Assembly: GCF_004123845.1 (NCBI RefSeq)
Contig: NZ_NBDP01000030.1
Span: 620,001-684,000, forward strand
Source: Allobosea sp. Tri-44
Lineage (GTDB): Bacteria > Pseudomonadota > Alphaproteobacteria > Rhizobiales > Beijerinckiaceae
DNA: 64,000 nucleotides
Direction: 5' to 3'
Shown here: in pieces, positions 15,523 through 41,121 of the stretch
How positions within the stretch are numbered: position 1 is the stretch's first letter
Layout: each line of letters starts with the position of its first letter
Notes under the pieces: model-generated
Seen by the model: the letters and a program-made list of their open reading frames with translations, nothing else
Told to the model about the DNA's origin: nothing
Databases searched by the model: none
Position numbers and translations under genes: made by a program

Positions 15523-15527
15523 GCGGT

Positions 15528-15573: not shown

Positions 15574-15633
15574 ACAGGTTGATATTCTGGGTCGAAAGGG
15601 CAGTGCCCCTCTCCGACATGGCGCCAGCGGCTG

Positions 15634-17565: not shown

Positions 17566-17642
17566 CGTTCAGCCCCCCTTGGCCGGTGGCAGATTAGCCG
17601 CACGTTGCTATACCTCGCTACCGAGCTCTGGGGCTTAACCAC

Positions 17643-19231: not shown

Positions 19232-19381
19232 TTGTGCTGAGGTCCAGATTCGTCGCCCTTGCGCGCGCGGCCTCGCGGCCGCCGTGGCGGGCGATGTGAT
19301 TTCGACCCTCATCGGGCGGCTTGAACTTCCCAGGACCGGCCGCCGGAGCCCTCGGGCTCCCCTGTCACGTCACCACTGGTG

Positions 19382-21421: not shown

Positions 21422-22521
21422 GGCGGCGGATCCCAGGTCGTGAGCCCAGGAACCGGCAGCGCGTCGCGATTGGGCACGACATCGCCGGCCGGCAGCACGA
21501 GGTAGTGACGGTACTCGCCACTGGCTGCGCTGATCGCCTCCGAGAGGCGCGAGCGGGCGAAGCGCTCGCCAATCTCGGCCTCCGCCGCGAAATGAGCAGC
21601 GGATGCGCCCTGCACGGCGGCGCGCACCGGCAGCGTGTCCGGTACGACGGCAAGCTGCATCGGCACCGGCAACAGCACCACCGGCCGGACGTAGACCTCG
21701 GCCGTCACCGGCCGGAGCACATCGAGATGAGCGGCCATGGCGTCGAGCTCGGCCGGGATCGGCGGCGTCGGCGCGACGGCCGTTCCCATGGCGACGACGA
21801 CGCCGACCGAGCCAGGGCCGACCCAGAGTGGCACGGTCGCGACCTTGGCGACGGCGAAGCTGTTCTGGATCCAGAGGCGATAATCGTGCTTGGCGCCGCC
21901 ATGACCGGGCTCGCGGATCTCGGCGAGGACGCGCGCCAACAGCGACTCGTCCGTCTCCTCCTCGGCGCCGCCAGCCATGCCGTTGGCATCGAGCAACGCA
22001 GCTTGGGGATCGAGCCCGGCCTGGACGGTGACGATCGGCAGGCTGGCGCCGCCGGCAGTGTTGCCGAGGACGCCGCCCTCGGCCGCCTCGAGCGCGATCG
22101 TCGCGTCGCCGGCGCCATTCAGGACGCCGCCGGCCGAGGTGAGGGCCAAACCGCCGCCCGGCAGGCGCAGGTCGAGGCCGGCCGGCACGGCCGTGGTCGC
22201 CACGCCGGTGAAGAGAGCCAGGCCAACGGCTTTGGTCGCCGGCCGGCGGAATACGCCCCAGATCGAGGCGTGACGGATCAGGAATTCGGCCTCGGCCGTA
22301 TCCGGCATCAGCTGCTGGACATTCCAGCTGAGATGCAGATGCGCGCCGTAGAGCCCGGTCGCCTGCGCCCGCACGATCGCGGCGAGCAGGCCTTTTTCCG
22401 AGCGGACGGCCCGGGCGATCGCCGCCGGGCTCGCGTCCGGCCGGATGCGCTTCAAGGAGGTTTCAAGTCTGGCCTCGGCCCGGCGCGTCAATTCCTCGGG
22501 CGTGGGCAGCGGCGCCGGCAT
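21418..22521 (-). CDS. Phage baseplate assembly protein J (gp47-like)
   Basis: A 367-residue baseplate J protein, the usual size for Mu gp47. Visible features are an N-terminal helical region (LTRRAEARLETSLKRIRPD), AEFLIRHASIWGVFRRPATKAVGLALFTGV, and the conserved DESLLARVLAEIREPGHGGAKHDYRLWIQNSF. The last is the hallmark of this family (a Gly-Gly followed by an YxxW segment). It builds the wedge ring of a contractile tail. It overlaps gp46 and gp48 by 1-4 bases, in standard Mu order. Confidence 0.9.
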   Translation of the reverse strand: MPAPLPTPEELTRRAEARLETSLKRIRPDASPAAIARAVRSEKGLLAAIVRAQATGLYGAHLHLSWNVQQLMPDTAEAEFLIRHASIWGVFRRPATKAVGLALFTGVATTAVPAGLDLRLPGGGLALTSAGGVLNGAGDATIALEAAEGGVLGNTAGGASLPIVTVQAGLDPQAALLDANGMAGGAEEETDESLLARVLAEIREPGHGGAKHDYRLWIQNSFAVAKVATVPLWVGPGSVGVVVAMGTAVAPTPPIPAELDAMAAHLDVLRPVTAEVYVRPVVLLPVPMQLAVVPDTLPVRAAVQGASAAHFAAEAEIGERFARSRLSEAISAASGEYRHYLVLPAGDVVPNRDALPVPGLTTWDPPP

Positions 22522-22985
22522 CAGGCGGCCTGCTGCATCAGCTCGAGCTCGGTCTCGCCGACGCGGCAGACCAGAGCAAGCCAGCCGCGGCGCGGCCAGC
22601 TGGTCGAGATCTGCGCCGGCGCCTCGGTCTCGACGCCGACCCAGCGCAGCGCCTCCCTAGCAGCGTCCTGGACGAAGAGCTCGGTGAGCTCGTGCTGCTT
22701 GGCGCGCTCGAGCAGCCAGAGGCGCGAGCCGGTGCAGCGGCCATAGGCGTCGAGCGCATCACCAACCGCGCCGCGACGAGTGACGAAGGAGGAGGAGACG
22801 TTGAGGGCGTCGCGGCCTTGCGGCAGCTCATCGTCCGGACGGGCCCGCCGGTCGGAGCCGAGCGAGATCAGCATGGGGGTAAGTGCTGTCTCGTCGAGCA
22901 GCAGATCGCCGTCCTCGCCCAGCTCGGCGTCAGCCGTGCGGGTGTCCGGATCGAAGATCAGCGCAACGTCGAGGAAGTCGGCCAT
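22521..22985 (-). CDS. Phage gp46-like baseplate protein
   Basis: A 154-residue GP46-family protein from the ATG at 22985 (MADFLDVALIFDPDTRTADAELGEDGDLLLDETALTPMLISLGSDRRA). The family traits are the early DxxxxxADxxLxxDGDL strand pair and the following LISLxxDRRA helix with RG-W later. In Mu-like phages this gene directly follows gp45; here two foreign genes separate them. The frame could start 9 codons earlier. Confidence 0.8.
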   Translation of the reverse strand: MADFLDVALIFDPDTRTADAELGEDGDLLLDETALTPMLISLGSDRRARPDDELPQGRDALNVSSSFVTRRGAVGDALDAYGRCTGSRLWLLERAKQHELTELFVQDAAREALRWVGVETEAPAQISTSWPRRGWLALVCRVGETELELMQQAA

Positions 22986-23020
22986 AGCGCGGACAATGTC
23001 GCGCGCGCGCAAGCCGGGAC

Positions 23021-23040
23021 ACGACCCGAGCTCGGGTCGT
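23021..23040. repeat. Perfect 20-bp palindrome at the cargo boundary
   Basis: ACGACCCGAG followed at once by its reverse complement CTCGGGTCGT. It lies between the gp46 start and the protease stop codon, next to the 8-bp repeat GTCAGACG. It may be a transcript end or a recombination scar. Confidence 0.7.
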
Positions 23041-23047
23041 CAGACGA

Positions 23048-23860
23048 TTATAGGGCAATGTACTCGTCCAACGCTCGACGGATATGACGAGCACTGTAGA
23101 TCATGAACCGACCGTTTCTGGCGCTCGTAATCATGCCTAAGAAGCTGAGGTGACACTGCCAGTCCTCAGATCGCCAAACGCAAAAAACGGGCGCGCCGCT
23201 CATCCCGTCCGGCCTATCCAGCGGCCGCTGCAGCGCGAGCGGGTCCTGCACCATGGGTAGACGATTTTCCTCGTCCATCAGTGCCGGCGCCGCATCTGTC
23301 AGATACAGCCGGAGCCACCCGACCCGTATGTTAACTCCACCCCCTTCAAGAGGATCAGAGTATTCAACTGCTGAGGTTGGATAGCCGATTGCCGCAGACG
23401 CGATGATCGATCCGGCGTCCAAATCCTCTCGAGTCGTCGCCAAATCAATCTGAAGGAAGTGGCGCCTTAGCTCCCGGCCATTGCGCGGCGAGCGGTATTC
23501 GAACAATGCAATATCGTCGAGGTTTGCCTGATGAGGAGGCTGAGCTTGAGCCTCTCCGATCGCATCGGGTGGCAAGCCAATGAACCGGCCATTTGGCTGT
23601 TGCAGCATGATGCTGAATTGGTCGGCATCAAAGGCAGCAATCTGGTGTCGGCAGCACAAGGCGAAATTGCATTCGCGATAACGAAGTAGGAAAGCCGAAC
23701 CAGATTTGCTGACGTCGAAGTCAGGCTCTCCGGCGTTGTATAGGTAAGCCGGAACGCAAAAGCGTTGGACAGCAAGCGGAACGTCTTTGAATGCTACAAG
23801 CACTCCATTCACGGGCACCGAAGCAAACAAGCGGGCTCGGATCAGTCTTGGCAGTCGCAA
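23048..23860 (-). CDS. Trypsin-like serine peptidase (cargo between gp46 and gp45)
   Basis: About 250-270 residues; there is no in-frame ATG, so the start is a TTG at 23860 or one of the GTGs about 15 codons later. A chymotrypsin-like triad can be read in order: SAFLLRYRECNFALCCRHQ with His72, NLDDIALFEY with Asp115/116, and RPDGMSGAPVF with Ser221 in the GxSGxP form. No signal peptide is visible, so it should act in the cytoplasm. Cytoplasmic trypsin-like domains are common in bacterial conflict systems, where they cut and activate or inactivate a partner. It is divergent from a PIN-nuclease gene, and both sit inside the phage tail operon. The substrate is unknown. Confidence 0.7.
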   Translation of the reverse strand: MRLPRLIRARLFASVPVNGVLVAFKDVPLAVQRFCVPAYLYNAGEPDFDVSKSGSAFLLRYRECNFALCCRHQIAAFDADQFSIMLQQPNGRFIGLPPDAIGEAQAQPPHQANLDDIALFEYRSPRNGRELRRHFLQIDLATTREDLDAGSIIASAAIGYPTSAVEYSDPLEGGGVNIRVGWLRLYLTDAAPALMDEENRLPMVQDPLALQRPLDRPDGMSGAPVFCVWRSEDWQCHLSFLGMITSARNGRFMIYSARHIRRALDEYIAL

Positions 23861-24012
23861 GTTTTTCCCCCGGCGAAGTCGACAACCTCACCCTAGCATG
23901 GCGCCTTCCCATGCGTCCGGGTCTGGATCAGGTCCCGCGTTCGGTGCGACGTGATCGACCCGCTTCCGTCTCAGCTCCGAGGAATGGTATGCCGCCTTAA
24001 CTCGAGGACGCG

Positions 24013-25107
24013 ATGCCGATGATAGAACAGCCCAAATCTGCGCCGGTTCGTCTTAGGACGCATCATGTGTTTCTCGACACCCAGGTCTACCGGAAGCTCG
24101 GGCATAATCCAGCCGCGCCCCCGTTGGTTGCTCTCAAGGAGCTGCTATCGAGCGGTCGTCTAGTATTGCATATCACCGACGTCATATTTCAAGAAGTCGA
24201 GCGGCAGCTGCACGACTTCGTTGGCGAAACAACGTCAGCGCTCAAAGGGGCGAAGCGACACTTGGGAAGATGGGTTCAACGGTACCCTAAACTCGTTACG
24301 ACCCTGCCTGAATTCGATCAAGCAGCCATCTCGATGGCTGCGTTCCGGGATTTTTCTTCGTTCATAAGATCGGTTCGCGCAATTGAGCATGGCATCGACA
24401 CAGTGCCGCCATCGATAGTTTTTGAGCGCTATTTCAAGCGCGAACCTCCGTTTCACAAGCTAGGCAGCAAAGAATTCCCTGACGCCTTCAACATCGCGAT
24501 GCTTGAAGCTTGGTGCGACAGTATGAAGGAAACGATTTACGTGGTCGGCGCTGACAAGGCCGTCTGTCAGGCTGTCGACCAATCTGAACATTTGCTGGCA
24601 ATGAACTCGCTGGAGGATCTCCTCGCGTCGGTTGCCGCGATGGATGAACCTCAACTTGTCGCCGAAGCCCGGACCATTTTCACCAGTTCGCCGGTTCAGG
24701 CGCAACTCGAGGCCGCTATCGAAGCTCAGATTGGCGATCTGATTCCCATATACGTGGGCGGTGATCTTCCGGAGGGCGAAGTCATCGAGCATCAGCTTGA
24801 TGGAGAAATATCGATTGGCGAGTTCAAGGTTCTTGCGACGTCGGCGACGGGGCTCCGCGTCGTCGTTCCCGTCAACATCCCATTGGTTGTCGATGTTTCA
24901 TATGAGGACCGATCCGATGCGATCTACGATAGCGAGGACGGCAAGTACCTCTTCGCGGAATCTGCGACCAAGGAAATCAGGGCTGATCCTACGATCCGCT
25001 TTTTTGCTCGTGTGTTTCGAGACCCATCAAGCAAAGACGTAGTCGTGGAAGCTCAGCCAGTGAACGTCCTGTTCCGGGTCAACGATGAGTTCGAAAATTA
25101 TAAGTGA
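24013..25107 (+). CDS. PIN-domain protein, DUF4935 type (cargo between gp46 and gp45)
   Basis: A 364-residue protein with an N-terminal PIN domain of the DUF4935 type. The four acidic active-site positions are present: Asp22 (VFLDTQVYRKL), Glu61 (DVIFQEVERQL), Asp157 (KEFPDAFNIAML) and Asp181 (VVGADKAV). About 165 C-terminal residues follow, beta-rich with acidic patches (EISIGEFKVLATSATGLRVVVPVNIPLVVDVSYEDRSDAIYD), of unknown role. Such enzymes are predicted ribonucleases and occur in phage-defence loci. Base composition is visibly more AT-rich than the flanking phage genes. It faces against the late operon, 152 bases from the divergent protease gene, implying its own promoter. Confidence 0.75.
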   Translation: MPMIEQPKSAPVRLRTHHVFLDTQVYRKLGHNPAAPPLVALKELLSSGRLVLHITDVIFQEVERQLHDFVGETTSALKGAKRHLGRWVQRYPKLVTTLPEFDQAAISMAAFRDFSSFIRSVRAIEHGIDTVPPSIVFERYFKREPPFHKLGSKEFPDAFNIAMLEAWCDSMKETIYVVGADKAVCQAVDQSEHLLAMNSLEDLLASVAAMDEPQLVAEARTIFTSSPVQAQLEAAIEAQIGDLIPIYVGGDLPEGEVIEHQLDGEISIGEFKVLATSATGLRVVVPVNIPLVVDVSYEDRSDAIYDSEDGKYLFAESATKEIRADPTIRFFARVFRDPSSKDVVVEAQPVNVLFRVNDEFENYK

Positions 25108-25118
25108 AACGATGACGG

Positions 25119-25688
25119 TCAGACGCCCGGCTCCGGGTCCGAGCCGACCACCGGCGCGACCGAGCAGACGATGCCGCTGGCGTTCAAGACCAGCCAGTGG
25201 GCGCCGAAGCGCAACTTGACATATTCGGGGCGGATCACGACGCGCGGCGCGTTCGCCGCCGCGCCAAGTTTGGCGATGATCCGGTCCTCGAGCACCTCGA
25301 CGGTGGCGTCCTTGACCTTTGACTTCACGCGCTTACGGCTGGTGCTCTCGATCGAGCCGTCCTTCTTCACATGAACGCGGTCGCCCTTGAGGTTGTGGAC
25401 GGCGACCTCGCCTTCTTCGAGCCCGCCCATGCGGTTGCCGGGCGCCTGGAGCGGCAGTGCGACAAGGTCGCCCTGATCGCCACCGACCGCCAGCACGATC
25501 GCCTCGCCGCCGGCGGGCGGCCTGGTCGAGACGCCGGAAACGCCGAGCACCTCGACATCGGTCCGCTCGACATGGCGATGCACCTCGACCGTAGCGGTCT
25601 GGCTGCCCCCCTTATCGTTGGTCGATCGCACCGCAGCGCGGGCGACGACGCCGCGATAGGCGTGAGCCGTTTCAGCGTCGGCCGACAT
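25119..25688 (-). CDS. Phage baseplate assembly protein V (gp45-like spike)
   Basis: A 189-residue spike protein; the ATG at 25688 is preceded by AGGAGG. The OB-fold start (AYRGVVARAAVRSTNDKGGSQTATVEVH) is followed by PPAGGEAIVLAVGGDQGDLVALPL and a beta-helical tip (AVHNLKGDRVHVKKDGSIESTSRKRVKSKVKDATVEVLEDRIIAKLG). This is as in Mu gp45/P2 gpV, which pierce the outer membrane. Its last codons overlap the 8-bp repeat that marks the cargo insertion. Confidence 0.88.
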   Translation of the reverse strand: MSADAETAHAYRGVVARAAVRSTNDKGGSQTATVEVHRHVERTDVEVLGVSGVSTRPPAGGEAIVLAVGGDQGDLVALPLQAPGNRMGGLEEGEVAVHNLKGDRVHVKKDGSIESTSRKRVKSKVKDATVEVLEDRIIAKLGAAANAPRVVIRPEYVKLRFGAHWLVLNASGIVCSVAPVVGSDPEPGV

Positions 25689-25698
25689 GGGCGCCTCC

Positions 25699-26958
25699 TC
25701 AGAGCGGCTTGGCGGTGCTGTCGAGCCCACCTGGTTTGCTGCCGCCCTTCTTCTTGGCGGACTTTTTCTGCGAGCGGCGGTCGCCGACCGGCATGAGGTC
25801 GAAGGCCTCGCGCCCGGTGACGCGCAGGCGGGTCATCTCGCCGCGTTCGTCATAGGAGATCGAGACGCCAGCGATCAGCTGCTCGGAAGAGAGGCCGGCA
25901 TAGTCGTCCTCGACGAAGGCGACCGTATTCATCTGCCAGGGCTTCTGGCCGGGCCCGCCGGTGATGCCGCGATAGCTGTAATCCATCTTGTCGCCCTTGG
26001 CCCGGCGGGTGCGCATCTCCCATTCCGCCTGCTTCTGGGCGTCGACATCCTTCGCCTGCGTGCGCGACATCGCGATGTGCGGCCGCCAGCGGGTGACGTC
26101 CGGATCCTTGGCATGGCCCATGACATGGGCGCCGGCGCCGCCCGGCTTGTCGAGCGGGGAATCCGTCGCCGGCGCCGGCTGATCGGGCGCCTCGTCCTTC
26201 GGCTCCTCGTCGACGCTGAGCGCGGCCTTGTCCGGGCGACGCCCGCCGTTCTTCTCGCTCTGCCCCTTCACGAAATAGTCGCTGAAGCGCTCGCGGGCCG
26301 AGAAGGTGGCGCGCACCCTGGTGACGTTGCCGGGAAAGTGGATCTCGTCGATCGCCTTCTGCTTGCCGGAGCGGGTGATCAGGATGCCGCCGACGCGGTC
26401 GCTGGTGATGATAACGGCGCGCTGCTTGGCGTATTTGGCGAGGCACGAGATCACCGTCTCGCCAGCCTCGACCGTCGCCTTGTCGAGCACCGGGCTGGTG
26501 TCGACATCACATTTGACCTTGATGCCGAAGGGCTCGCAGATTTTCTTGGCGAACTCCTCGAGCTTGATCTTCTTGTACTCGTGCTTGCCGCGCGGATCGG
26601 GCGGGCAGTCGACCAGATCGCCGGTCTTGTCGCGGCCGGAGATCGTGACATAGCCGCCGCCCTGCTCGCCCACCTCGGAGCAGACGTCATCGATCCAGCC
26701 GACCAGCCAGGTCTTCTTGTCGATCGTGATCTCAGCCTTGCGGCCCCAATTCATCGGCTCGCCATCACCAGCCGGCGTCGTCCACTCCCAGGCGACCTTG
26801 GCGCGCTCATCGTCATGTACGGTGAGCTCGAAGGACGCTGCGAGCTCGCCCATGTCGTGGTCGAGCTGCACCTTGGTCCAGCGGTCAATGATCTTGCCGT
26901 CGATCTTCAGCGCGATCCGGCGCGTCGGGATCTTCGCCGGGAGATAGACCTGGCTCAC
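25699..26958 (-). CDS. Phage baseplate hub, late control gene D-like (Mu gp44)
   Basis: A 419-residue hub protein. The N-terminal half (RIALKIDGKIIDRWTKVQLDHDMGELAASFELTV ... VGWIDDVCSEVGEQGGGYVTISGRDKTGDLVDCPPD) has the beta-rich VgrG/gpD pattern. The middle contains EFAKKICEPFGIKVKCD, and the C-terminal domain has HIAMSRTQAKDVDAQKQAEWEMRTRRAKG and a final YDERGEMTRLRVTGREAFD, standard for Mu-type hub proteins. It overlaps the remnant of the DNA-circularisation gene by 4 bases. Confidence 0.88.
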   Translation of the reverse strand: MSQVYLPAKIPTRRIALKIDGKIIDRWTKVQLDHDMGELAASFELTVHDDERAKVAWEWTTPAGDGEPMNWGRKAEITIDKKTWLVGWIDDVCSEVGEQGGGYVTISGRDKTGDLVDCPPDPRGKHEYKKIKLEEFAKKICEPFGIKVKCDVDTSPVLDKATVEAGETVISCLAKYAKQRAVIITSDRVGGILITRSGKQKAIDEIHFPGNVTRVRATFSARERFSDYFVKGQSEKNGGRRPDKAALSVDEEPKDEAPDQPAPATDSPLDKPGGAGAHVMGHAKDPDVTRWRPHIAMSRTQAKDVDAQKQAEWEMRTRRAKGDKMDYSYRGITGGPGQKPWQMNTVAFVEDDYAGLSSEQLIAGVSISYDERGEMTRLRVTGREAFDLMPVGDRRSQKKSAKKKGGSKPGGLDSTAKPL

Positions 26959-27188: not shown

Positions 27189-28965
27189 TTGCCAGGTCGA
27201 GCACGGTGCGGCTGGTGATCTTGCGGCGCTCGGCCCGCATGCTGGCAGTGCGGTCGTCGATCAGGCGCTTCTGTGCAGCCGCCACTTCGGCGCGTATGGC
27301 TGCCGGATCCTCGCCCAGTAGCTCAGGACAGCGGCCTTCGCCGAGCAGTGCGTCGGTGTCGGGATCAAGACACCAGATGCGGCCCTTGTCCGCGGGATCG
27401 AGGCGGATAAACACACGCGTCCCAACGGAAACGCCGGCAGCGAGATAGTGATGGCCGTCGATGCGGACGCCGCGCTTACCGACGGTACGGATGCCGTCGC
27501 CGCCAGGGGCAGGCATCAGCAGGACGGTGAGAGCTTGGGCGTCGACGCGACGGATGGCCTGTGTCCAGCTCGCTGCCTTGGCGAATGGGCTCATTCCAAG
27601 GGCGCCATGGCCGCGCCGGCCATACTGAGCGTCTGCCCAGGTATCGCACTCGGCCTGCAGTTGCTCGCCGCTGAGCTCGACAGCGAAGGCCTTGGCGTCA
27701 TCGGTGCCCAGACGGGAGGCGAAGGCGCGCCGAGCCTCGATCACCTTGCGATCGCTGACACTGTGCCCGATGAAACCCGGCAATGTCCGACCGAGATCAG
27801 TCTGGAAGGTGCGGATCACCCGCTCCACCGGGCCCTTCTGCCAGGGGGAGAAGGCGGTCGAGGTCACATGCTCGATCTGCAGTGCGGCGAAGAGCCGGCG
27901 TGTCGCCTTCGCGACGAAGTCCGAACCATTGTCGGTCTTCACTTGCTCGGGCACGCCCCAAGCCGCCAGTGCTTTGCGCAGAAGGAGCTGGACGGCTTCG
28001 GAGCGCGGGGTCTTCGATACGTGCAGGATCAGCCGGCGCGACCAGATATCGATGCAGGCATAGACCGAGTGGCGACCGTCCAGGCAAAGGGCGTCGACTG
28101 GTGAAGCGTCGATCTGCCAGAGCTCGTTCAACCGTGTGGTCAGGTGCGTATAGGAGCCTGAGACACGCGTGCGCGAGACGAAGGCATCGGGATTGGTCAG
28201 CGCCATGAGCTCGGTTTGAAGCTCGGATTTCCAGCGCTTCAACGCGACTTCAAACGCACGCTGGCCCGGCAGCGCTCGCATCTCGCCGTCCAGGGCGACG
28301 CCCTCCGGATAGCGCCCGCGACAGGCCTCGTAGATTTGTCGGGCGGTATAGAGTGGGTTCTGCGCCACAAGGGCGAGCATGAAGGCCTTCAACTGGCCAT
28401 CGGCGCCGGCGTCAAGCAGGCCCTTGCCTCTGCGAGAAGCTCCGCGATCGACCGCGAGCCGCTGCACTTCGCCATCGCTCGCGACGGAGAGCCAGCGCAA
28501 CAGCGTCCGCGAAGACAGCCGCCGGACGCGCTCACGCACCCAAGCCGGAATGTCGACTCTGTGGAGATTGTAGAGATCAGCAAAATGAGTGATCGCCACG
28601 GTCTGCGTGAGATCTGCCGCCCTCTGAAAAGCGCGGAGCGCCCCAAGGATGGCGATGCGAGCATCGAGCTGTTCGCCAGCCGCTGCGGCCGGCACCGAGA
28701 CGTCTGGCGCCGCTTGAAGCGCGGTTGAAGCGGCTTCGGCGATCGCGCTCTGGCCTGCGCGCCCGAAATAGGCAGCACGCGCCGCGGCCGGCAGCAGATT
28801 GACGTGATACTCGACGCCGCCGCCGCGGCCTGCGCGGGCGCGGCACAGACTGGAAAAACCCGCCCATCCCTCTCGCTCGGCCAGATCGCGCAGGCCGCGA
28901 TCGGTCGCGGGCAAGCCTGGAAGCGCGAGGGCGGCGAGCTCGGATGCTGTCAGCCAGAGCTTCAC
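27028..28965 (-). CDS. Mu-like DDE transposase, 3' end replaced by a deletion junction
   Basis: A 645-codon frame. The N-terminus (MKLWLTASELAALALPGLPATDRGLRDLAEREGW) is the MuA-type winged end-binding domain. An RNase H-like core follows, with Asp286 (WQIDASPVDAL), Asp345 (VKTDNGSDF) and Glu381 (KGPVERVIRTF), so all three catalytic acids are present with D-35-E spacing. A beta-barrel domain (KRGVRIDGHHYLAAGV, GTRVFIRLDPAD) is next. After RRKITSRTVLDLAS the frame continues into about 50 Arg/Pro-rich residues that are the off-frame reading of the tail-gene remnant, so the native C-terminus, needed for ATPase and remodelling partners, is missing. No MuB-like ATPase follows. Probably immobile on its own. 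Confidence 0.8.
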   Translation of the reverse strand: MKLWLTASELAALALPGLPATDRGLRDLAEREGWAGFSSLCRARAGRGGGVEYHVNLLPAAARAAYFGRAGQSAIAEAASTALQAAPDVSVPAAAAGEQLDARIAILGALRAFQRAADLTQTVAITHFADLYNLHRVDIPAWVRERVRRLSSRTLLRWLSVASDGEVQRLAVDRGASRRGKGLLDAGADGQLKAFMLALVAQNPLYTARQIYEACRGRYPEGVALDGEMRALPGQRAFEVALKRWKSELQTELMALTNPDAFVSRTRVSGSYTHLTTRLNELWQIDASPVDALCLDGRHSVYACIDIWSRRLILHVSKTPRSEAVQLLLRKALAAWGVPEQVKTDNGSDFVAKATRRLFAALQIEHVTSTAFSPWQKGPVERVIRTFQTDLGRTLPGFIGHSVSDRKVIEARRAFASRLGTDDAKAFAVELSGEQLQAECDTWADAQYGRRGHGALGMSPFAKAASWTQAIRRVDAQALTVLLMPAPGGDGIRTVGKRGVRIDGHHYLAAGVSVGTRVFIRLDPADKGRIWCLDPDTDALLGEGRCPELLGEDPAAIRAEVAAAQKRLIDDRTASMRAERRKITSRTVLDLASARGDEWPPRHRHVRGDRPAAAGDPDRAAARRRLAARPALCRRRSQPGGADAA

Positions 28966-29843
28966 GCCGTTTCGCCCTTTTTGGTACGGGCGGGCTGGGC
29001 GAGCGGCTCCGTCGCCTTCAGTCGAAGGTCGACCATGGTGCGCAGGTCGAGCAACTGCTGGCGCGAGAGGCGCTGGATGATCGGTTCCAGCTTTACGAGC
29101 GGCCGGTCGTCCTTTCGCACTGCGCCGCCCTCCGGCACGATACCGGCGCCGACGCGAGCTTTGGCGACGGAGGTGGCCCGTCCTGCGGCGAACTCGCGAG
29201 CGACTTTGAGCTGCTGCTCCCCATCAAGCGCCGCGAGCGCCTGCAACTGAGCCTGGTTGTCCGCAATCTTGGTGCCGCGGATCAATGCGACGGCATCAGG
29301 CGACAGTTTGCCAGCCAATTCGATCGAAAGACGGATTGTACGCGGCGCCAAATCCGTCTGCTTGGCAGCCTCCTTCGCGAAGGACAGGAAAGTGGCAAAG
29401 TTTGCCACTTTCCCCTCGTTCCTCTTCGACTTCCTGGCCTTCCCGTGCGCGGTCTGGGGGTGCAGTGCCTCGTATACCCGCTTACGCTCTGCCAGAAATT
29501 GGGCTCGCTCCAGCGCGGTGAGCTCCTTGCGAGCAAGGTTTTCGTCAATCTCAATCTGACGCGCCTGATCGTCGCTGCACTCGATCGCTACCGCGTCGAT
29601 TTCATCCCATCCGTTGATCTCGCCAGCTCGATGGCGATGACCGCCGACAACAAGCTTCCAGCCGCTGCCAGCAGGATGAACGCGCAACACGACGGGTTGG
29701 ATCTGACGCCCCTCATTCATGGAGGCAGCGATCAGTTGCGCGTGAGCCTCATCGACTGGCCGCAGGCGGCCCGAGGTGTCGATATCGGCAAGGCGGACGC
29801 GGAAGACTGGAGAACTGGTGGTGAGCGTGGCGAGCAGGCTCAT
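28962..29843 (-). CDS. ParB/RepB-like nuclease-fold protein of Mu-like phage early region
   Basis: A 293-residue protein. Residues 15-110 form the ParB N-terminal fold: VRLADIDTSGRLRPVDEAHAQLIAASMNEGRQIQPVVLRVH, VVGGHRHRAGEINGW and DEIDAVAIECSDDQARQIEIDENLARKELTALERAQF. A helix-turn-helix-like segment follows (LAPRTIRLSIELAGKL). In Mu-like phages of Hyphomicrobiales a ParB-like gene commonly stands between the Ner-like gene and the transposase, as here, with 1- to 4-base overlaps on both sides. A role in early regulation or DNA binding is inferred. Confidence 0.82.
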   Translation of the reverse strand: MSLLATLTTSSPVFRVRLADIDTSGRLRPVDEAHAQLIAASMNEGRQIQPVVLRVHPAGSGWKLVVGGHRHRAGEINGWDEIDAVAIECSDDQARQIEIDENLARKELTALERAQFLAERKRVYEALHPQTAHGKARKSKRNEGKVANFATFLSFAKEAAKQTDLAPRTIRLSIELAGKLSPDAVALIRGTKIADNQAQLQALAALDGEQQLKVAREFAAGRATSVAKARVGAGIVPEGGAVRKDDRPLVKLEPIIQRLSRQQLLDLRTMVDLRLKATEPLAQPARTKKGETA

Positions 29844-30088
29844 CAGGCTGCCCTCTCGCGAGTGAGCAAGCCCCGGCGCGCACCCGTTGCATCATAATGT
29901 TCGGGCCAAATGTCGTGAGGCTGCTTGCCCAAGGCCTCAGAAATGAGGTTCGCCACCTTGGGATAGGGCTGCTCCAACGCACCATAGATGGTGAAGCGGC
30001 TGATCTCCGCCTTCTCGGCGATTGCGGCGACAGTCGTGCCGCTTTCGCGAAGCGCGAAAAGGATTTGCTGCTTGGTCCAGTTCGACAT
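29843..30088 (-). CDS. Ner/Nlp-like phage DNA-binding regulator
   Basis: An 81-residue helix-turn-helix protein (WTKQQILFALRESGTTVAAIAEKAEISRFTIYGALEQPYPKVANLISEALGKQPHDIWPEHY). The pattern, with the final PxxIWPxxY, is the Ner/Nlp family that shuts down early transcription in Mu. It is the first gene of the leftward early operon and divergent from the repressor over a 128-base control region. Confidence 0.85.
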   Translation of the reverse strand: MSNWTKQQILFALRESGTTVAAIAEKAEISRFTIYGALEQPYPKVANLISEALGKQPHDIWPEHYDATGARRGLLTRERAA

Positions 30089-30216: not shown

Positions 30217-30891
30217 TTGCTGATTGACCCGGCAAAAATGGCGGAAAGGCTTTCTGATGCAATCAATCGTGCCGGCGGTCGCGGCAGGGTCGCTTCGCTG
30301 ACGGAAATTCCGCAATCTTCGATCGATAGATACTGCCGCAATCAGTCGGAGATCCCGGCTCTGCGCATGGGCGAGATCGCACGCGCTTGCGCAGTGACGA
30401 CCGACTACCTCATTTATGGGGAGGATTTTTCGGCAGATCTGGTGAGAGCCGAACTCGCCGCGTCACCGGTCAACGACAACGTCGTGATGATTCCCATGCT
30501 AGACGTCATCGCCTCGGCCGGACCGGGCATCGAAAACGCCAGGCCCTATGAGATTGGCAAGTTGCCATTCCCGCGCACTTGGTTGCTCGAGTTGGGCTTG
30601 CCAGAGAAGTTCGCGCGGTTCGCGGACAGCCGCGGTGACAGCATGACTCCGACGATCCCTGACGGCGCGATTTGCCTGATCGACATCCGGATCGACAGGC
30701 CGCGCAAGGATGGAATCTACGTGCTGGTCGATGGCAACAATGTTCGGATCAAGCGCATCGCAATAGGCTGGCAGGGGGCGATCCAGCTGCTGAGCGACAA
30801 TGAACGCTATGCGGCCGAGACGCTTGCTGCTCCGGACGCTGAAGCCCTGCGGGTTGCCGGCCGGGTGGTTTGGGCTGGCGGTGAGATCTAG
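30217..30891 (+). CDS. S24-type phage repressor (CI/LexA-like)
   Basis: A 224-residue repressor. An N-terminal helix-turn-helix (MAERLSDAINRAGGRGRVASLTEIPQSSIDRYCRNQSEIPALRMGEIARA) is joined to an S24 peptidase domain. Self-cleavage features are visible: a cleavage-type Ala-Gly in DVIASAGPG near residue 107, Ser in RGDSMTPTIPDG, and Lys in NVRIKRI. DNA damage should therefore trigger its autocleavage. The start is a TTG at 30217, chosen because AAGGA precedes it; the ATG at 30238 lacks a site. It faces away from the early operon, as in Mu. Confidence 0.88.
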   Translation: MLIDPAKMAERLSDAINRAGGRGRVASLTEIPQSSIDRYCRNQSEIPALRMGEIARACAVTTDYLIYGEDFSADLVRAELAASPVNDNVVMIPMLDVIASAGPGIENARPYEIGKLPFPRTWLLELGLPEKFARFADSRGDSMTPTIPDGAICLIDIRIDRPRKDGIYVLVDGNNVRIKRIAIGWQGAIQLLSDNERYAAETLAAPDAEALRVAGRVVWAGGEI

Positions 30892-32563: not shown

Positions 32564-35500
32564 ATGTCCGGCGAAGAGGTTGACAACGAAGAAGAAGAGC
32601 GTGGGTCAAGCCCGGCCGCTCGCGGAGGCGCCGGCGTCTACATAGAAGGCGAACTGGGCGCCTTCTATCTGCTCGCTATGCTCGCCCGCAGCGAGCCACG
32701 GGGATTGAAGAATACTCGGATCGAACGGGTACGCTTTCAGGGCGTCGAGTTGGGGTATGCCCTTGACGACCTGATTGTTCACGCTAGCAACGCCGCAGGC
32801 GAGAGCCTCCTCGAAATTCAGTCCAAGCGGACAATCACCTTCGCGCCCAAAGATCCCGTCTTCCGAGAGGTCTGCGCGCAGATCGCAACAAGCACAAACG
32901 CATCGTGCCCCGAAGAGCGCCATTTCCTCGGCGTAGCCACCCAAAGGACCAGCAACGCCATATCCGGCGCGTATCAGGACGTGCTCCAGTGGGCGGACAT
33001 GGCCGGCACCAGTGCCGATTTCTTCCGGCGCTTGTCTGCGAAAGGCGTCGCGAGCAAATCCATGCGCGACTTTGTTGCGACGTTCCGCGCTAACCTCGTC
33101 GCGGAAGGGGTCGATGAGAATGACGACGCCATTTGGCGCATCCTTCGCCGGTTTCTGATCCTTGAATTCGACTTCGAGTCGAGCTCGCCAGTCGCGCGGA
33201 CGCTCGGGCTCGTCCTGGCGGGACAAGTGCTGTCCGACGAGGATACGCCGCGCGCTGGCGCGTTGTGGAGCACCCTCATCGAAATTTCCATCGCGACCAG
33301 CAAGGCTGGCGGATCTCTCGATCTCCAAACATTGTCGGAAGAACTGCGCAACCGTGGCTTCCGCCTGGCCGGCGATCGGAATTTTTCGCTGGCTAGAGCT
33401 AGGCTCAAAGAAATGGCCGGCATGGCGTTGGCCAACATTGGCAACACGATCGCAGGTCTGCACTTGCCGCGGCTCGACGCGATCGCCGCGGTCGATTCCG
33501 CGCTGGAGAGTCACCGGCTCATCGAAATCCGCGGAGGTCCGGGCGTCGGCAAATCAGGGGTGCTTCGCCACTTGGCTGAGCGCCACCTAAGGCAGTCGCA
33601 CGTCATTGTGCTCGACCCGGTGGGCACACCCGATGGCGGATGGATCGCGTACGCCCAATCGATTGGGGTGTCGGCCACGGCGAAGGCGTTTCTGAGCGAT
33701 CTTGCCGCCAGCGGCGGCGGTGTTCTTTTCATCGACAGCCTGGAGATGTTCGCCGAGCCCGGGCGACAGCGGACGGTCAACGACCTGCTGCTCGAGGTCA
33801 GCAGGATCGAAGGATTTACCGTCATAGCGACCGCCCGTTCCGAGTTCGGGAAGGATGGAGAAACCTGGCTGGCGGATGATGCCCTTGCCGCCCTCGGAGC
33901 CGGCCAAACGGTTAGCGTCGGGGAGCTTCAGGACGCCGAAGTCGAGATGCTCAGCGATCATGCGCCGGCGCTTCGCGCGCTGCTTGCCACCGGTCACCCC
34001 GCGGCTCCTATCGCCCGTAACCTTTATCGCCTCTCCCGTCTGCTCAAGGTGCCCAGCTCGGCCACCATCCGGACCGAGGCCGCACTCGCGGATTATTGGT
34101 GGCGGACCGCTGACGGCGCTTCCGCCGACGTAGTGCGCGCAGCTCAGCGGATACTCGCCGATCTGGTCGACAAATCCCTCACTGGGGGAGACGCGCTGGA
34201 GCTGAAAAGCGACTCGACCGCCCGGTCGCACCTCTTGCGATCGCTGACGCTACGCGAGGGTAGGCGCGACCATCTCGGCTTCTATCACGACGTCCTGCGC
34301 GATTGGGCCGTCGCATGCCGTATCCACGAGGACCGCAGTCACCTAACAACCCTCGATCTGACTGCTCCCGTTTCGCCGCGCATTGCGCGCGGCATCGAGT
34401 TTGCCGGGCGGTTGTCCCTTGAGATGCAGAACGGGTGCGACTCTTGGCTGGAGATCCTCACCCTTCTGTCGCCTGCGGGCTCTCACGGTTCATGGAGGCG
34501 CCAGGCGCTACTAGCGATCGTGCGATCCGAGCTGGGACTAAGCCTGCTCGATCGCTGCGGTGTGGCTCTGCTCGCACAAGGAGGCTCGCTATTCCGGGAG
34601 CTATGCAGGGCCATCGTCGCGGTCGAAACGGTTGCGACCGCGGATCTTCTCAAAAGCGTAGATCAGGGCGGAACTCAGCCTGTCGTGCCAAGGTCGCTGC
34701 GAACCAACACCACTGGGTCCGCCGCGGTGCTTTTGCTGTGGTGCGCGAGCCACTCGAAGAATATCCCCCTGCAGGCGATTGGTGCAGTCATCGACCTCGT
34801 CGAGATCCAGTATGTCATCCTGATGGGTTCTCCGACCCTGGCAAAGTCCGTCGCTAAGATGCTATTTGACTGGCTGCTGCAGCTGGACGTTCGAGACGCT
34901 CTCAGGACAATACCCAGTAGCAAGATGGCGGGTAACGTCGACCGGCAGGCGGGCGATCGGCTGGTGGAAGATCTGCGAATGTGGTCGCTTTTGCTTACCG
35001 TCCACGCGCCCGATGACGCCAAAGCCTACCTCCGTGCAGTCGCCGCTGAGCCTGGCACCCACAAAGTGAAGGCGATTCGATCGTTCAGCAGCTTTCTCGT
35101 ACATGCTGCGCCGAGCGAGCTTGCCGCGTTGATCGTCGGCAGTCTGATCGAGCACAAGGAGCGTGAATCTCCAAATGGCCGATCTCGCGACCGTGAGTTC
35201 AGCTTCGCCGATTCGGACTACCTTCCGCCATCGCCCGCGCAGCCACCCTTCTTCGATTTGCTCCAGGCCTCGCCCCAGATTGGGCTCGGTCTGATCCGAA
35301 AGCTAACGCTGGAGGCGATCTCTCACGGTTCGCGCGGCGCCGGTGCCAGCGCCGACGGTTTCACACTCGTGTTCGAGAACGGGCCGCGCTTCTTCCCCTG
35401 GAAGCAGAGTTATTTTTGGTCGAGGGACCAGGCTCGAGAATATTCCGTCGCATCTGGTCTCAAAGCGCTCGAAGCATGGGGACACGCTCGGCTCGATGCC

Positions 35501-37654
35501 GGCGAGCCAATCGACGCGGTGCTCCCCGACATCCTCGGCCCTGATGGTAGTTGTGCCGCTTATCTCCTCGTGGCCGTCGACCTGCTGATCTCCCACTGGC
35601 CGGCAAGCCGCGAGGCGCTTGTGCCATTCATGGCGTGTCCTGAGCTCCTCGCCACCGAACACTCGCGCCATTCCCTTGACCTGATGGACGATGGGTCATT
35701 TTCGGGCCGCGAGCCTTCCGGCAAGGTGCTGCTCGCCGATCTGGCGGCACGTCCTTCCCGCAGCATACCACTCGCAAACATGGTGGTTGGTTGTCTCGCC
35801 GATGATGCGCTTGCGAACCGGCTGCGCACTCAGCTCAAAGCCGCGGTCGACGCGCTCGGCCGCTTCGACGAGCGTGCCAATTTTAGCGATCCAGCGTTCA
35901 TGGGAGCGTATGTGCTGAACATGCTGCACCCGGAAAACTGGGTCGCGGCCGAAAGGGGACGTGCTTATCGGTCGCCGCTTGCGAAAGCCGAGCACCTCGA
36001 GCGGTTGAGCAAGCGGTCCGATCAACTGGTCCGATCAAGCGAAGTCGAAGCAAAAATCAATCTTGCCATTGGCGATGCCGCCCGAGCTTCGCCCGAAGTT
36101 GCCCGCGAAGCGGCAGACTATGCGGCCGGAGAACTGCCAGGCGACAGCGATACCGGCGCGTCGAAAATGCGATCGACACAGTTAGTAGCCACCGCGATGC
36201 TGATAGCACGCGACGGCGACGAAATCTTACTCGACACGCAAGAGCATTGGGTGCGTTCGGCAATCGATCGTGCCCTAGCCGAGAGCGTCGACGGAGGTGC
36301 AGGGTCGGGCGACAAACTCCGGTACAACCGGCCGGCGCTTGCAATCTGCGCCCTCGTCCATCTGTGGCTTCGTAAGCGCACGCCGGGGGATCGCGAAACC
36401 CTGATCGCGAGCGCTGCCCGTAGGGACCGCTCGGCTCCTACGGCATTCGCGGCTGCCTTAGATGCAATTCTCGCTGACGATCCCAGGCTTTTGAAAGCCG
36501 CCGTCCGTGCCGCCTTCGCGAGTTGCACATACCGCTGGCGTCCTAGCAACGAGGACGCATCGGCGCAGGCGCGGTTCGAGCATGAAAAGGCCGCCAAGGA
36601 CGCGCGCGCCGCGGCGGCCGAGATGGAATGGCTAGATGGCGGACCTGAGCCTGAGTGGCCGGCGTTTCCGGACGAATGTCGTGGCATTGCGCCGCTAGCG
36701 GATGACGAGCTGACCGATCCGTTGGTCGACTCTGTGACCGGCGACGCGACGATCCGGACCGACAGCCAATTGGCCGCGCGATGGTTGCGATTGCTCACCG
36801 GCAAAGCAGGGTCCGCGATCGAGTGGCGCGGCGAGATTGTCGATGCCTATGCTACCTGGTCAGCCGAAGTAAACGGCCATGGCCTCCCGCCGGCGACAGA
36901 GATTGAGGGGCGCAAGCACGAGTGGAACGAACAGTTCTACGCGCTACTCGGAATAGCCATGATGGACATGACTCCGCCACGCTTCGCGGAGCAGTTGAGG
37001 CTAGTCACGGGTCTGCCGGATAAATCGTTCGGCGACGTGGCCGAACCACTTATTCACGCGGCTGACGTCCTCTATTTCAACGACCCACAGCGCAATTCGG
37101 AGCGCGCGGTTGAGCTGCGCACGCTGCTTACTCAGCGGACGCTGGCGCTGCGCAGATGGACCTGGTCGCGCCGCCCCGGAGATTTGTCGATTGACCGGGA
37201 AACTGCGCGGATCGTCGCAAAGGTCCTAATGAACACTCACGATTCATTCGCTGGAACGCAGAGCTATTTGGTGCAGGGTGTCTTCGATCGTGTCGATCCG
37301 CTGCTCGATGTGCTGCGTCCGCTTCTTCCCGGCGGCCCGACCGCTTTCATCGCTCGATGCACGATGAACATGCTCCTCGTGGCGCCGCGCGCTCGCCATA
37401 TCGACTTCCTCCTCTCGGGTGTCGAGGCTTGGCTCAAGCACTTGCCAACAGATCAGGCGATGTGGGTTACGTTAGGGATCGGTCGGAAGGTCATCGGCTG
37501 GTTCGAAAAGGCAATCATCGATGAACCTGGACTGCTCGGCCTCGAGCATCCCCACCACGATCGTATCGATGCAGCGTTGGGTCGCCTCGTGGATCTTGGG
37601 GTGCCCGAGGCCCACGAGATGGAGAAGCTGGTCGAATATGCCCGTGGTCCGTAA
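32564..37654 (+). CDS. Avs-like antiviral STAND NTPase with N-terminal Cap4/DUF4297-like nuclease
   Basis: A 1,696-residue protein. Residues about 25-200 look like a Cap4/DUF4297-type nuclease: GAGVYIEGELGAFYLLAML, then LDDLIVHAS with Asp69 and LLEIQSKR with Glu84, Gln86 and Lys88, the ExQxK form of the PD-(D/E)xK site. A STAND-type ATPase follows, with Walker A GGPGVGKS at residues 324-331 and Walker B VLFIDS at about 387-392, then a sensor ATARSEFG. The last 1,000 residues are helical repeats expected to sense a ligand. The order nuclease-ATPase-repeats and the size match Avs proteins, which recognise phage proteins and cut DNA. It lies between the repressor block and the prophage end, a cargo position. 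The target is unknown. Confidence 0.72.
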   Translation: MSGEEVDNEEEERGSSPAARGGAGVYIEGELGAFYLLAMLARSEPRGLKNTRIERVRFQGVELGYALDDLIVHASNAAGESLLEIQSKRTITFAPKDPVFREVCAQIATSTNASCPEERHFLGVATQRTSNAISGAYQDVLQWADMAGTSADFFRRLSAKGVASKSMRDFVATFRANLVAEGVDENDDAIWRILRRFLILEFDFESSSPVARTLGLVLAGQVLSDEDTPRAGALWSTLIEISIATSKAGGSLDLQTLSEELRNRGFRLAGDRNFSLARARLKEMAGMALANIGNTIAGLHLPRLDAIAAVDSALESHRLIEIRGGPGVGKSGVLRHLAERHLRQSHVIVLDPVGTPDGGWIAYAQSIGVSATAKAFLSDLAASGGGVLFIDSLEMFAEPGRQRTVNDLLLEVSRIEGFTVIATARSEFGKDGETWLADDALAALGAGQTVSVGELQDAEVEMLSDHAPALRALLATGHPAAPIARNLYRLSRLLKVPSSATIRTEAALADYWWRTADGASADVVRAAQRILADLVDKSLTGGDALELKSDSTARSHLLRSLTLREGRRDHLGFYHDVLRDWAVACRIHEDRSHLTTLDLTAPVSPRIARGIEFAGRLSLEMQNGCDSWLEILTLLSPAGSHGSWRRQALLAIVRSELGLSLLDRCGVALLAQGGSLFRELCRAIVAVETVATADLLKSVDQGGTQPVVPRSLRTNTTGSAAVLLLWCASHSKNIPLQAIGAVIDLVEIQYVILMGSPTLAKSVAKMLFDWLLQLDVRDALRTIPSSKMAGNVDRQAGDRLVEDLRMWSLLLTVHAPDDAKAYLRAVAAEPGTHKVKAIRSFSSFLVHAAPSELAALIVGSLIEHKERESPNGRSRDREFSFADSDYLPPSPAQPPFFDLLQASPQIGLGLIRKLTLEAISHGSRGAGASADGFTLVFENGPRFFPWKQSYFWSRDQAREYSVASGLKALEAWGHARLDAGEPIDAVLPDILGPDGSCAAYLLVAVDLLISHWPASREALVPFMACPELLATEHSRHSLDLMDDGSFSGREPSGKVLLADLAARPSRSIPLANMVVGCLADDALANRLRTQLKAAVDALGRFDERANFSDPAFMGAYVLNMLHPENWVAAERGRAYRSPLAKAEHLERLSKRSDQLVRSSEVEAKINLAIGDAARASPEVAREAADYAAGELPGDSDTGASKMRSTQLVATAMLIARDGDEILLDTQEHWVRSAIDRALAESVDGGAGSGDKLRYNRPALAICALVHLWLRKRTPGDRETLIASAARRDRSAPTAFAAALDAILADDPRLLKAAVRAAFASCTYRWRPSNEDASAQARFEHEKAAKDARAAAAEMEWLDGGPEPEWPAFPDECRGIAPLADDELTDPLVDSVTGDATIRTDSQLAARWLRLLTGKAGSAIEWRGEIVDAYATWSAEVNGHGLPPATEIEGRKHEWNEQFYALLGIAMMDMTPPRFAEQLRLVTGLPDKSFGDVAEPLIHAADVLYFNDPQRNSERAVELRTLLTQRTLALRRWTWSRRPGDLSIDRETARIVAKVLMNTHDSFAGTQSYLVQGVFDRVDPLLDVLRPLLPGGPTAFIARCTMNMLLVAPRARHIDFLLSGVEAWLKHLPTDQAMWVTLGIGRKVIGWFEKAIIDEPGLLGLEHPHHDRIDAALGRLVDLGVPEAHEMEKLVEYARGP

Positions 37655-38169
37655 GGCACGATCAAGCCCGGCTAGAACCATGGCAAATTGTTTGCTGGGT
37701 TGTATGCGCACATCAGGGTTGCCTGACAGCCAACGCCCGCAGAGTCAGATAAGAGCCATTTTCGGCTGTAGCGTGAGTGGACGGCTGGTGTCCGAATTGG
37801 TCAGGAACCAGATGTCGAGCAGCCTAATGGAGTTCCGAGTTACTTGGCAGCGCCTCGCGGCGTAGGAGCGACGTTGCTCTTTGAAAACGTTCGCTAAAAT
37901 AGAACTCGGAAGGAGCGGCCGACCCTGTCCTGATTCTTCCGAGTTTAAAGGGCTCCCTCAAGCTTTTCGGGGCTTCTGGCGACCGTCTGGGCATTGCGAT
38001 CGACGGCTATTGCCATTTGGTCATTCGCTCGGAAGCGCAGCCTGGCCTGTCCATGTCATACGCGAGGGCGCTTAAGTACTTGCAGCACTGCGCCTTTCCG
38101 CCCGATCCCAGCTAATCCCGCCTGATCCCGCCTATCCCCTGCCATTGCCATCTGATCGTTCGTTTCACA
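37655..38169. other. Non-coding terminal segment of the prophage
   Basis: 515 bases without a convincing gene. They contain the internal transposase site at 38011-38028 and the terminal site at 38146-38163. GATCCCGCCT-like units are repeated near 38105-38135. Short open frames here lack ribosome sites and codon bias. Confidence 0.6.
38011..38169 (-). repeat. Right terminus of the prophage: two inverted transposase sites
   Basis: On the minus strand, GCGAATGACCAAATGGCA (38011-38028) and ACGAACGATCAGATGGCA (38146-38163) are inverted with respect to the left-end sites. The last base of the element is 38169 (CACA), 6 bases outside the outer site as at the left end. Confidence 0.82.
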
Positions 38170-38176
38170 GCGGTGT

Positions 38177-38222
38177 TGTAGCGCGAACAACCAAATGGCA
38201 CCTAGCGAACGATCAAATGGCA
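38177..38222 (+). repeat. Orphan second copy of the left terminus, outside the prophage
   Basis: Begins TGTAGCGCGAAC at 38177, with sites GCGAACAACCAAATGGCA (38183-38200) and GCGAACGATCAAATGGCA (38205-38222), in the same 22-bp period and 6-bp offset as at 15528. It stands only 2 bases past the GCGGT duplication. No matching inverted end is found further right in the window. Confidence 0.8.
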
Positions 38223-38295
38223 ACAGATCGCATTTCTGAGAATGGCCAGGTTCTCCAATGATGCAGCCCGACCGCCTCTCCTCGGAACGTGGCCG

Positions 38296-39315: not shown

Positions 39316-41121
39316 TCATACGAACAGGAAGTCGCTCTGATGCAGCAGCGCGAGGTTGACATTCTGCAACGTCAGCGAGGTGCCGGCGTCGAATGCAAAA
39401 ACCACATCTGCCCCGGACTGGCTCGCAAAGCTCATCAGCTTCGCAAACGAATCGGCCAGGACCGGATCAATCTGCACGACATCGGCATCGGCAATGCCCG
39501 CACCTTCGAAATCGCCGATCACGTCGTGCCCATAGCCTGATCTGAAGACGAAAGTGTCCTTGCCGCCGAAACCGAACAGCAGATCGTTGCCGGCTCCTCC
39601 CGACAGCACGTTGTTCAAGCTGTTCCCGCCGATTCCGTTGTCGAGGGCGTTGCCAATGCCAGTGACGGCGGTGTCCTGCAGGTTCAAGGCCTCGACATTG
39701 TCCGGCAGAACATAGCTGACGCTCGAATAGATGCGGTCATAGCCCTGGTCCTGATCCTCGACCACCGCTGCCGAGGCTGTGCTGACAAAATAGGTATCAT
39801 TCCCCCGGCCGCCGTAGAGGCTGCCGCCAGCGCGGCTGACAATCGTGTCGTCGCCGTCGCCACCATCAAAAATGGCAGTATCCGTCGCGCCGATCAGGAC
39901 GTCGTCGAAGCGACTGCCCCGAACACCGTCGATGCTGGAAAAGGTATCCCCTGCCGCTTCGCCCGTATTGGCCACGGCCCCCGAAAGGCTCACCCGCACA
40001 GCTTCGGTTGCGTTTTCATAGGTCGCCCAATCGAAGCCGCGGCCGCCCACCAACTGGTCCGCCCCGGTCCCTCCCTCCAGAATTTTGAAGCCGAACGGGC
40101 CGGAGAGCGTGTCGTTGCCCGCGCCGCCTCGCAGAATACTGCCATGCCCACCTGAAAGCACGTCGTCGCCGTCGCCACCTTCCATAAGAGTAAACGAACT
40201 TCCGATCAGTCTATCGTTGCCCGCCCCGCCATATAGCTTGTCTCCGTCTCCCCACGCCGACAAGACGTCGTTACCATCCAGGCCGTACAGAACGTCCTCG
40301 CCATTGCCGCTCGCGATTGAATTGTTCCCATTGTCGCCGATGAGAACATCGTTGCCTGACGAGCCGACCAGCGCCTCGATCGATAGGAACACGTCGCCTG
40401 CGGCATCGCCTGTATTAAGTTCGGGGGCGCCGAGGTGCACGAAAACCGGCGCGTAAAAGAGTGCCGTGTCGAAGCCTTCGCCTCCGTTCAGGATGTCGGC
40501 GCCCCAGCCCCCATAGAGAGTGTCATTCCCCTGTCCGCCGGCGAGATAGTCGTTCCCCGCGCCGCCATCCAGCGTATCGTTGCCTTCGCCACCGTCGAGA
40601 TGATCCGCGTGGCTGCCTCCGCGAACGGCGTCATCGCCTGCCCCCGCCGCCACATAGTTCATTCCGTCTCCAGCGACGATATCGTCGATACCTGTCCCGC
40701 CGATGATGTAGTCGTCGCGACTGCCGGTCGTAATCTCGTTGACGCGGTCGTAAAAGCCCTGTGTGGTGTAGACCGTCGATGCGCGGTTGGTCGGATCAAT
40801 TACATCCGTGATCGTATAGCGCAGTTGATCACCATAATATTCAGCGATCGATGTGATTTCCGTCCGATCGAATGTACCGGCATAGGAGCCGCCATAATTT
40901 CGAACGACATGCGCAACCGTATGAGTTCCGTCAGGATTGGCGAATGTCACGTCCCAATTCTGGATTGTGTGTGATCCGCGATTGACCATAACGAATGTCT
41001 CGCTACGGAAATTTGATCTCGTTCCTGAATCCAGCGCCTGGAAGCCCCGGCCATAAAGCGCAGTCAGATCAAATTCCAGTGCGCGAAGCGTGAAGGCGTC
41101 GGCCACGGTCAGGATCGGCAT
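39316..41121 (-). CDS. RTX-type calcium-binding repeat protein
   Basis: A 601-residue protein. The first 130 residues (MPILTVADAFTLRALEFDLTALYGRGFQALDSGTRSNF...) have no recognised domain. From about 135 to 540 there are many nonapeptide repeats of the GGxGxDxLx type (for example DGGEGNDTLDGGAGNDYLAGGQGNDTLYGG), which fold into Ca-loaded beta-rolls. The C-terminus (VVQIDPVLADSFAKLMSFASQSGADVVFAFDAG) is like the uncleaved type I secretion signal of RTX proteins. It is presumably secreted; no type I transporter genes are in the window. Confidence 0.85.
   Translation of the reverse strand: MPILTVADAFTLRALEFDLTALYGRGFQALDSGTRSNFRSETFVMVNRGSHTIQNWDVTFANPDGTHTVAHVVRNYGGSYAGTFDRTEITSIAEYYGDQLRYTITDVIDPTNRASTVYTTQGFYDRVNEITTGSRDDYIIGGTGIDDIVAGDGMNYVAAGAGDDAVRGGSHADHLDGGEGNDTLDGGAGNDYLAGGQGNDTLYGGWGADILNGGEGFDTALFYAPVFVHLGAPELNTGDAAGDVFLSIEALVGSSGNDVLIGDNGNNSIASGNGEDVLYGLDGNDVLSAWGDGDKLYGGAGNDRLIGSSFTLMEGGDGDDVLSGGHGSILRGGAGNDTLSGPFGFKILEGGTGADQLVGGRGFDWATYENATEAVRVSLSGAVANTGEAAGDTFSSIDGVRGSRFDDVLIGATDTAIFDGGDGDDTIVSRAGGSLYGGRGNDTYFVSTASAAVVEDQDQGYDRIYSSVSYVLPDNVEALNLQDTAVTGIGNALDNGIGGNSLNNVLSGGAGNDLLFGFGGKDTFVFRSGYGHDVIGDFEGAGIADADVVQIDPVLADSFAKLMSFASQSGADVVFAFDAGTSLTLQNVNLALLHQSDFLFV

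Follow-up and report, generated by a model that had tools for sequence, protein, structure and literature searches.

The Mu-Like Element

The window analysed here is a stretch of 64,000 nucleotides from the genome of Allobosea sp. Tri-44 (contig NZ_NBDP01000030.1, positions 620,001 to 684,000); coordinates below are positions within it. It contains a Mu-like element of 22,642 bp, running from 15528 (TG) to 38169 (CA), with a 5-bp duplication (GCGGT) on both sides. The ends were placed by comparing homologous ends in other genomes; a relative in genome G301 has the same ends and its own duplication (GCGGC) on both sides. The main features of the element are:

15523–15527: target-site duplication GCGGT, right-end side
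15528–15589: right end, TGTAGCGCGAA..., with two transposase-site-like repeats (same end in G301)
18434–19312, minus strand: DNA methyltransferase of the element (phrog_56, E 9e-72)
20825–26958, minus strand: surviving baseplate genes, comprising wedge genes (20825–23012) and hub (25699–26958) (PHROGs matches)
27193–27195: junction of the ~27-kb deletion spanning MuB to tape measure, by comparison with G301 C46
27028–28965, minus strand: MuA-like transposase (phrog_310, E 3.3e-95), its last ~56 codons past the deletion junction
28962–29843, minus strand: ParB-like protein (phrog_3264, E 3.8e-54)
29843–30088, minus strand: Ner-like regulator (phrog_769, E 4.7e-18)
30217–30891, plus strand: repressor c, with helix-turn-helix and S24 peptidase domain (phrog_4, E 3.6e-37; PF00717)
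32564–37654, plus strand: predicted STAND immune nuclease gene, 1,696 amino acids (intact ORF, 66-row family alignment, two structure models with pLDDT 88 and 86)
38090–38169: left end, ...CGTTTCACA (homologous ends in L062, L067, L068, and L070)
38170–38174: target-site duplication GCGGT, left-end side

The element shares with Mu and the Mu-like phages RC1 / RS1 a MuA transposase (42% identical to that of RC1 / RS1), Ner-like and c regulators, baseplate genes, TG/CA ends, and the 5-bp duplication; unlike them, it lacks MuB and the packaging, head, sheath, and tape-measure genes, and it carries a large cargo at its left end. Compared with the G301 element, ~27 kb are missing at the deletion junction. 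PHROGs matches to the genes tested in this G301 stretch include a DNA transposition protein (MuB), terminase, portal, minor head protein, head protease, tail sheath, and tape measure, and the source element has no MuB, packaging, head, sheath, or tape-measure gene from the MuA junction up to the hub. The prophage is defective; with these genes missing, autonomous spread is unlikely, and no particles are expected from the element by itself. Both ends and the MuA-like ORF are kept, but the central genes are lost and no second MuA of the element's family was found in the source genome, so the element is at best mobilisable. An earlier note on this DNA had described a defence gene on a transposable phage that would spread by transposition; a Mu-like element is borne out here, and its spread by transposition is, given the losses described above, not supported as the note put it.

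The STAND gene lies, as the same note had placed it, between repressor c and the left end of the element. Seven related Mu-like elements whose left end could be placed have 1,268–2,914 bp, filled with small genes, between c and that end; an eighth (L066), whose left end was unresolved, was left out of the comparison. The corresponding distance here is about 7.3 kb, which identifies the STAND gene as an addition at the left margin of the element. The right margin is also variable cargo, as the G301 element has other genes there: two genes of unassigned function (15634–18437) lie immediately inside the right end, one encoding a 643-amino-acid protein with a marginal CARF/HEPN-type PADLOC match (E 0.0074). 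A 2.1-kb cargo insert (23044–25122), absent from the G301 element, separates two baseplate genes; it contains, on the opposite strand, a gene with a PIN_12 domain (24013–25107, E 3.5e-20), together with an ORF that had no matches. Past the left end of the element, a 601-amino-acid protein encoded at 39316–41121 contains RTX calcium-binding repeats (PF00353, E 1.4e-38). No equivalent of a Mu-like prophage carrying defence cargo was found in a literature search, among the titles and beginnings of abstracts listed.

Insertion behind a Conserved Host Gene

Of 67 genomes of the genus, 66 contain the host gene that adjoins the right end (14227–15522; a SleB-like cell-wall hydrolase, judged by eye). 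Across the 67 genomes the right-end pattern of the element family was counted 26 times, spread over 19 genomes. An element end starts 3–17 bp after the stop codon of the SleB-like gene in 14 of the 66 genomes, in both orientations: ten are right ends (G000, the source, together with G011, G110, G189, G233, G286, G306, G341, G349, and G350) and four are left ends (G084, G300, G328, and G351). Up to two mismatches were allowed in matching the ends, and the left end in G328, with one mismatch, is less sure; inspection by eye of G310 showed no element end behind the gene. The Mu-like family repeatedly inserts behind one conserved host gene, a preference reminiscent of Tn7 and unexpected for a Mu-type phage. 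No report of such a preference was seen in a search of titles and the beginnings of abstracts, which is not proof of its absence.

Two bases behind the left-side duplication lies another right end of this element family (38177–38238), followed by a decayed-looking second element; this position suggests that one site was hit twice. Direct repeats of 64 bp, at 15526 and 38175, were considered as possible insertion-sequence remnants, an idea ruled out by end comparison across relatives, in which both repeats are Mu-like right ends.

The STAND Protein

The gene begins with ATG and runs for 1,696 codons with no internal stop, exactly over the interval and at nearly the size (about 1,700 residues) that had been noted from the sequence. 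It is the sole match to itself within the 6.05-Mb source genome. Homologues align with the ORF end to end over ~1,690 residues, which argues that it is not a chance frame. The GC3 of the gene is 0.70, as against about 0.85–0.92 in many flanking host genes. The predicted domains are:

32615–33373, plus strand: PD-(D/E)xK nuclease domain of Cap4/Avs3 type, residues 18–270 (structure match; conserved residues)
32768–32770 and 32813–32827, plus strand: nuclease motif, D69 and E84-Q86-K88
33374–34093, plus strand: STAND NTPase, residues 271–510, with Walker A around 324–331 and Walker B around 388–391 (Avs4 structure and profile match)
34241–37651, plus strand: end of winged-helix region and helical-repeat sensor, residues 560–1696 (structure match to Avs4, 8dgf)

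The catalytic residues named in the earlier note (Asp69 and an ExQxK motif at 84–88) are present and invariant or nearly so in the 66-row full-length family alignment: Asp69 and Gln86 occur in all 66 rows, Lys88 in 65 (with Arg once), and Glu84 in 63. Residues Gly324, Gly329, and Lys330 of Walker A and Asp391 of Walker B are each found in 66/66 rows. Mean column conservation is 0.61 in the nuclease and 0.48–0.53 in the sensor, which is the least conserved part of the protein.

Two structure models were compared with the PDB, one of residues 1–660 (66 alignment rows, mean pLDDT 88.3) and one of residues 560–1696 (pLDDT 86.3); helical repeats are predicted after residue ~600, in keeping with the long repeat region remarked on earlier. 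The best match of the nuclease part (residues 18–270, VIA-align) was to Avs3 (8dgc, Z 13.8 over 208 residues), followed by Cap4 (6wan, Z 13.3), LmuA (13.0), and Hachiman (12.8); the Avs4 nuclease gave no row of its own among these PDB matches. For the NTPase (residues 271–510), Avs4 (8dgf) was the top match (Z 16.7 over 217 residues); lower rows included NLRC4 and NLRP-type NACHT proteins. The sensor half matched Avs4 with Z 21.7 (rmsd 6.2, 977 aligned residues, 10% identity), model residues 4–1132 corresponding to chain residues 449–1587, and the next PDB row had Z 11.0, a gap of 10.7, to be read with the caveat that helical repeats readily yield high Z scores. Avs3 is absent from the PDB matches listed for the sensor model, which says nothing against it.

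Profile comparisons agree with the structural ones: the family sequence profile matches Avs4 (8dgf) with E 6.4e-15 over residues 274–1044, a profile match to Avs4 for the NTPase has E 5.7e-6, and hhalign to an Avs4 pair gave 97.7% (E 2.4e-12); a search of the PDB with the single protein sequence produced just a chance match. On the predicted structures and these profiles together, the protein resembles Avs4 from the NTPase through to its C-terminus, and its effector resembles Cap4/Avs3. The structure prediction and comparison proposed in the earlier note thus found an Avs3/Cap4 match at the N-terminus and an Avs4 match in the centre, as its description of an Avs-like nuclease-STAND protein implied.

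Avs4 (AVAST type 4, solved with the portal of phage PhiV-1) resembles the protein in the STAND NTPase, the entire C-terminal sensor, and similar length; the STAND protein falls far below the Avs4 family cut-off, and its nuclease resembles that of Cap4/Avs3, whereas the N-terminal nuclease of Avs4 is Mrr-like. Avs3 (solved with the terminase of phage PhiV-1) is alike in the nuclease domain, but it is the longer protein (its solved chain has 2,028 residues), and the match to the sensor half comes from Avs4. The nuclease fold is also that of Cap4 of CBASS, LmuA of Lamassu, and Hachiman, nucleases that work with partner proteins or SAVED domains, whereas a STAND receptor is fused to the nuclease in the present protein. 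It is set apart from CBASS Cap4 because the nuclease is followed by STAND, and no SAVED family appeared among Pfam matches up to E 1. Avs1, Avs2, and Cap4 were not adopted as whole-protein identities, because the sensor half is best matched by Avs4.

Relatives and Distribution

No curated model in Pfam, PADLOC, or NCBIfam spans the protein. Pfam nSTAND3 matches below its family cut-off (E 0.0055). The best match in the defence library is the PADLOC candidate PDC-M54A (E 3.1e-13), a model of similar length whose aligned part is the first fifth only (residues 17–349 of 1,696); some family members match Avs4 or other models in place of it. The PADLOC Avs4 model gave E 0.041, and the NCBIfam Avs4 model (NF041815) gave 18.3 bits against a cut-off of 1,500 (E 2.5e-4, residues 298–437 only), values that indicate large sequence divergence from Avs4.

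Searches with an alignment as query succeeded where single-sequence scans of genome contigs and viral contigs found no relative: 207 loci were detected in genome contigs, of which the best 80 were kept, and relatives were found on 5 viral contigs. Among 72,556 plasmid records, 27 contain relatives, and in 8 of these the match extends across at least 80% of the query; tblastn of the STAND protein against 50,697 phage records gave no match. The gene is rare in the source's own bacterial family, with relatives in 4 of 298 genomes, source included. In a maximum-likelihood tree the nearest neighbour is from a Marinobacter MAG (support 99), and the surrounding clade mixes alpha-, beta-, and gammaproteobacteria, which fits a horizontally moving gene. 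The family is mobile and patchy across phyla, and many members are on megaplasmids or chromosomes. PADLOC families at 1e-10 numbered 156 among 150 near-neighbour proteins (loci up to L118 among 68 usable) and 26 among 105 far ones, an enrichment that is suggestive only, since PADLOC families overlap and families rather than proteins were counted. The Avs4-like receptors to which the protein belongs form an uncurated branch of at least 207 genome loci, and the gene is probably horizontally acquired cargo.

Distant relatives were seen in several other settings. In L156 the gene lies behind a tape-measure gene. In L154/L155 relatives are found beside a Zot-like gene and an integrase; in L154 (3851–14358), on a contig classed as viral, the integrase is of the tyrosine type. 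In L030 (3883–12800), from the source's bacterial family, a relative lies at the end of an apparent other prophage with tail and lysozyme-like genes (by eye) and a methylase, adjoining an arsenic-resistance-like cluster (by eye).

Predicted Function

The protein is probably a one-protein antiphage receptor, resident on a defective Mu-like remnant, that would sense a portal-type protein, cut DNA, and kill or stall the cell. By analogy with Avs4, the sensor would bind a conserved late structural protein of an infecting phage, most likely the portal; the NTPase would then drive oligomerisation of the receptor, the clustered Cap4-type nuclease domains would cut DNA, and the infected cell would die or stall before phage release. 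The Mu-like prophage, its own portal and head genes lost, would persist as a resident defence-carrying remnant. The models and conserved residues combine nuclease, STAND NTPase, and large helical sensor in one chain, and the proposal of DNA cutting after binding of a late protein follows from analogy with Avs1–Avs4, whose nucleases are described in a Mol Cell paper (PMC12931631) as cleaving phage and host DNA after recognising the terminase large subunit, the portal, or another phage protein. The likeness of the modelled sensor to Avs4 over its whole length points to portal-type ligands and argues against a wholly new trigger; the earlier note had suggested that a new phage protein may be recognised.

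Large sequence divergence and a sensor identity of 10% indicate that ligand specificity may have changed relative to Avs4, and a receptor of the same kind whose sensor recognises something other than the portal (the terminase, some other capsid or tail component, or a host protein that infection disturbs) is a serious, if less favoured, possibility. The low identity speaks for it, as do the several triggers reported for Avs-type proteins in PMC12931631; against this, the fold match from model residue 4 to 1132 covers nearly the whole of the Avs4 sensor.

We regard it as unlikely that the protein serves the prophage instead of the cell, through superinfection exclusion or inter-element competition against Mu-like or tailed phages. 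The gene lies in a prophage and adjoins its lysogeny genes, and the distant members L156 and L030 are also beside phage genes; however, tblastn of the flanks of 95 other STAND-bearing loci, over the stretch available, found no MuA (the matches obtained were a ParB-like one and a weak one to a methylase, and three further loci gave one methylase match), and the many relatives on megaplasmids or chromosomes also stand against it. That the gene is an unexpressed, decaying passenger of a wholly defective element, as the 27-kb deletion, the second right end at 38177, and the 2-kb insert between baseplate genes might imply, is very doubtful given 1,696 codons without a stop and the retention of all catalytic and Walker residues.

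If the portal is the trigger, as in the portal-sensing receptor favoured here, an intact phage carrying the STAND gene would be in danger of setting off the receptor in its own lytic cycle; the source element itself has no portal gene. We hypothesise that portal loss is tied to carriage of the STAND gene; ordinary decay of the prophage may just as well account for the deletion. In a broader and distinctly improbable version, the element is a Mu-like phage turned site-preferring defence transposon, in which a self-toxic portal sensor could be kept thanks to loss of the portal and head genes, and Tn7-like insertion behind a conserved gene would make its carriage harmless; were this true, the portal of intact relatives such as that in G301 would trigger the STAND protein.

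Implications

The intact gene encodes an Avs4-like receptor of an uncurated branch with a Cap4-type nuclease, carried on a defective Mu-like element; the receptor would sense the portal and probably kills infected cells. This large branch carries a Cap4-type nuclease as a swapped effector, and such an exchange hints at modular evolution of sensor and effector. The preferred insertion of the element family bears on the question whether a defined attachment site is possible for Mu-type phages. If the portal is indeed what the receptor senses, a prophage that has lost its own would offer a clean test of phage-borne immunity directed against phage structural proteins.
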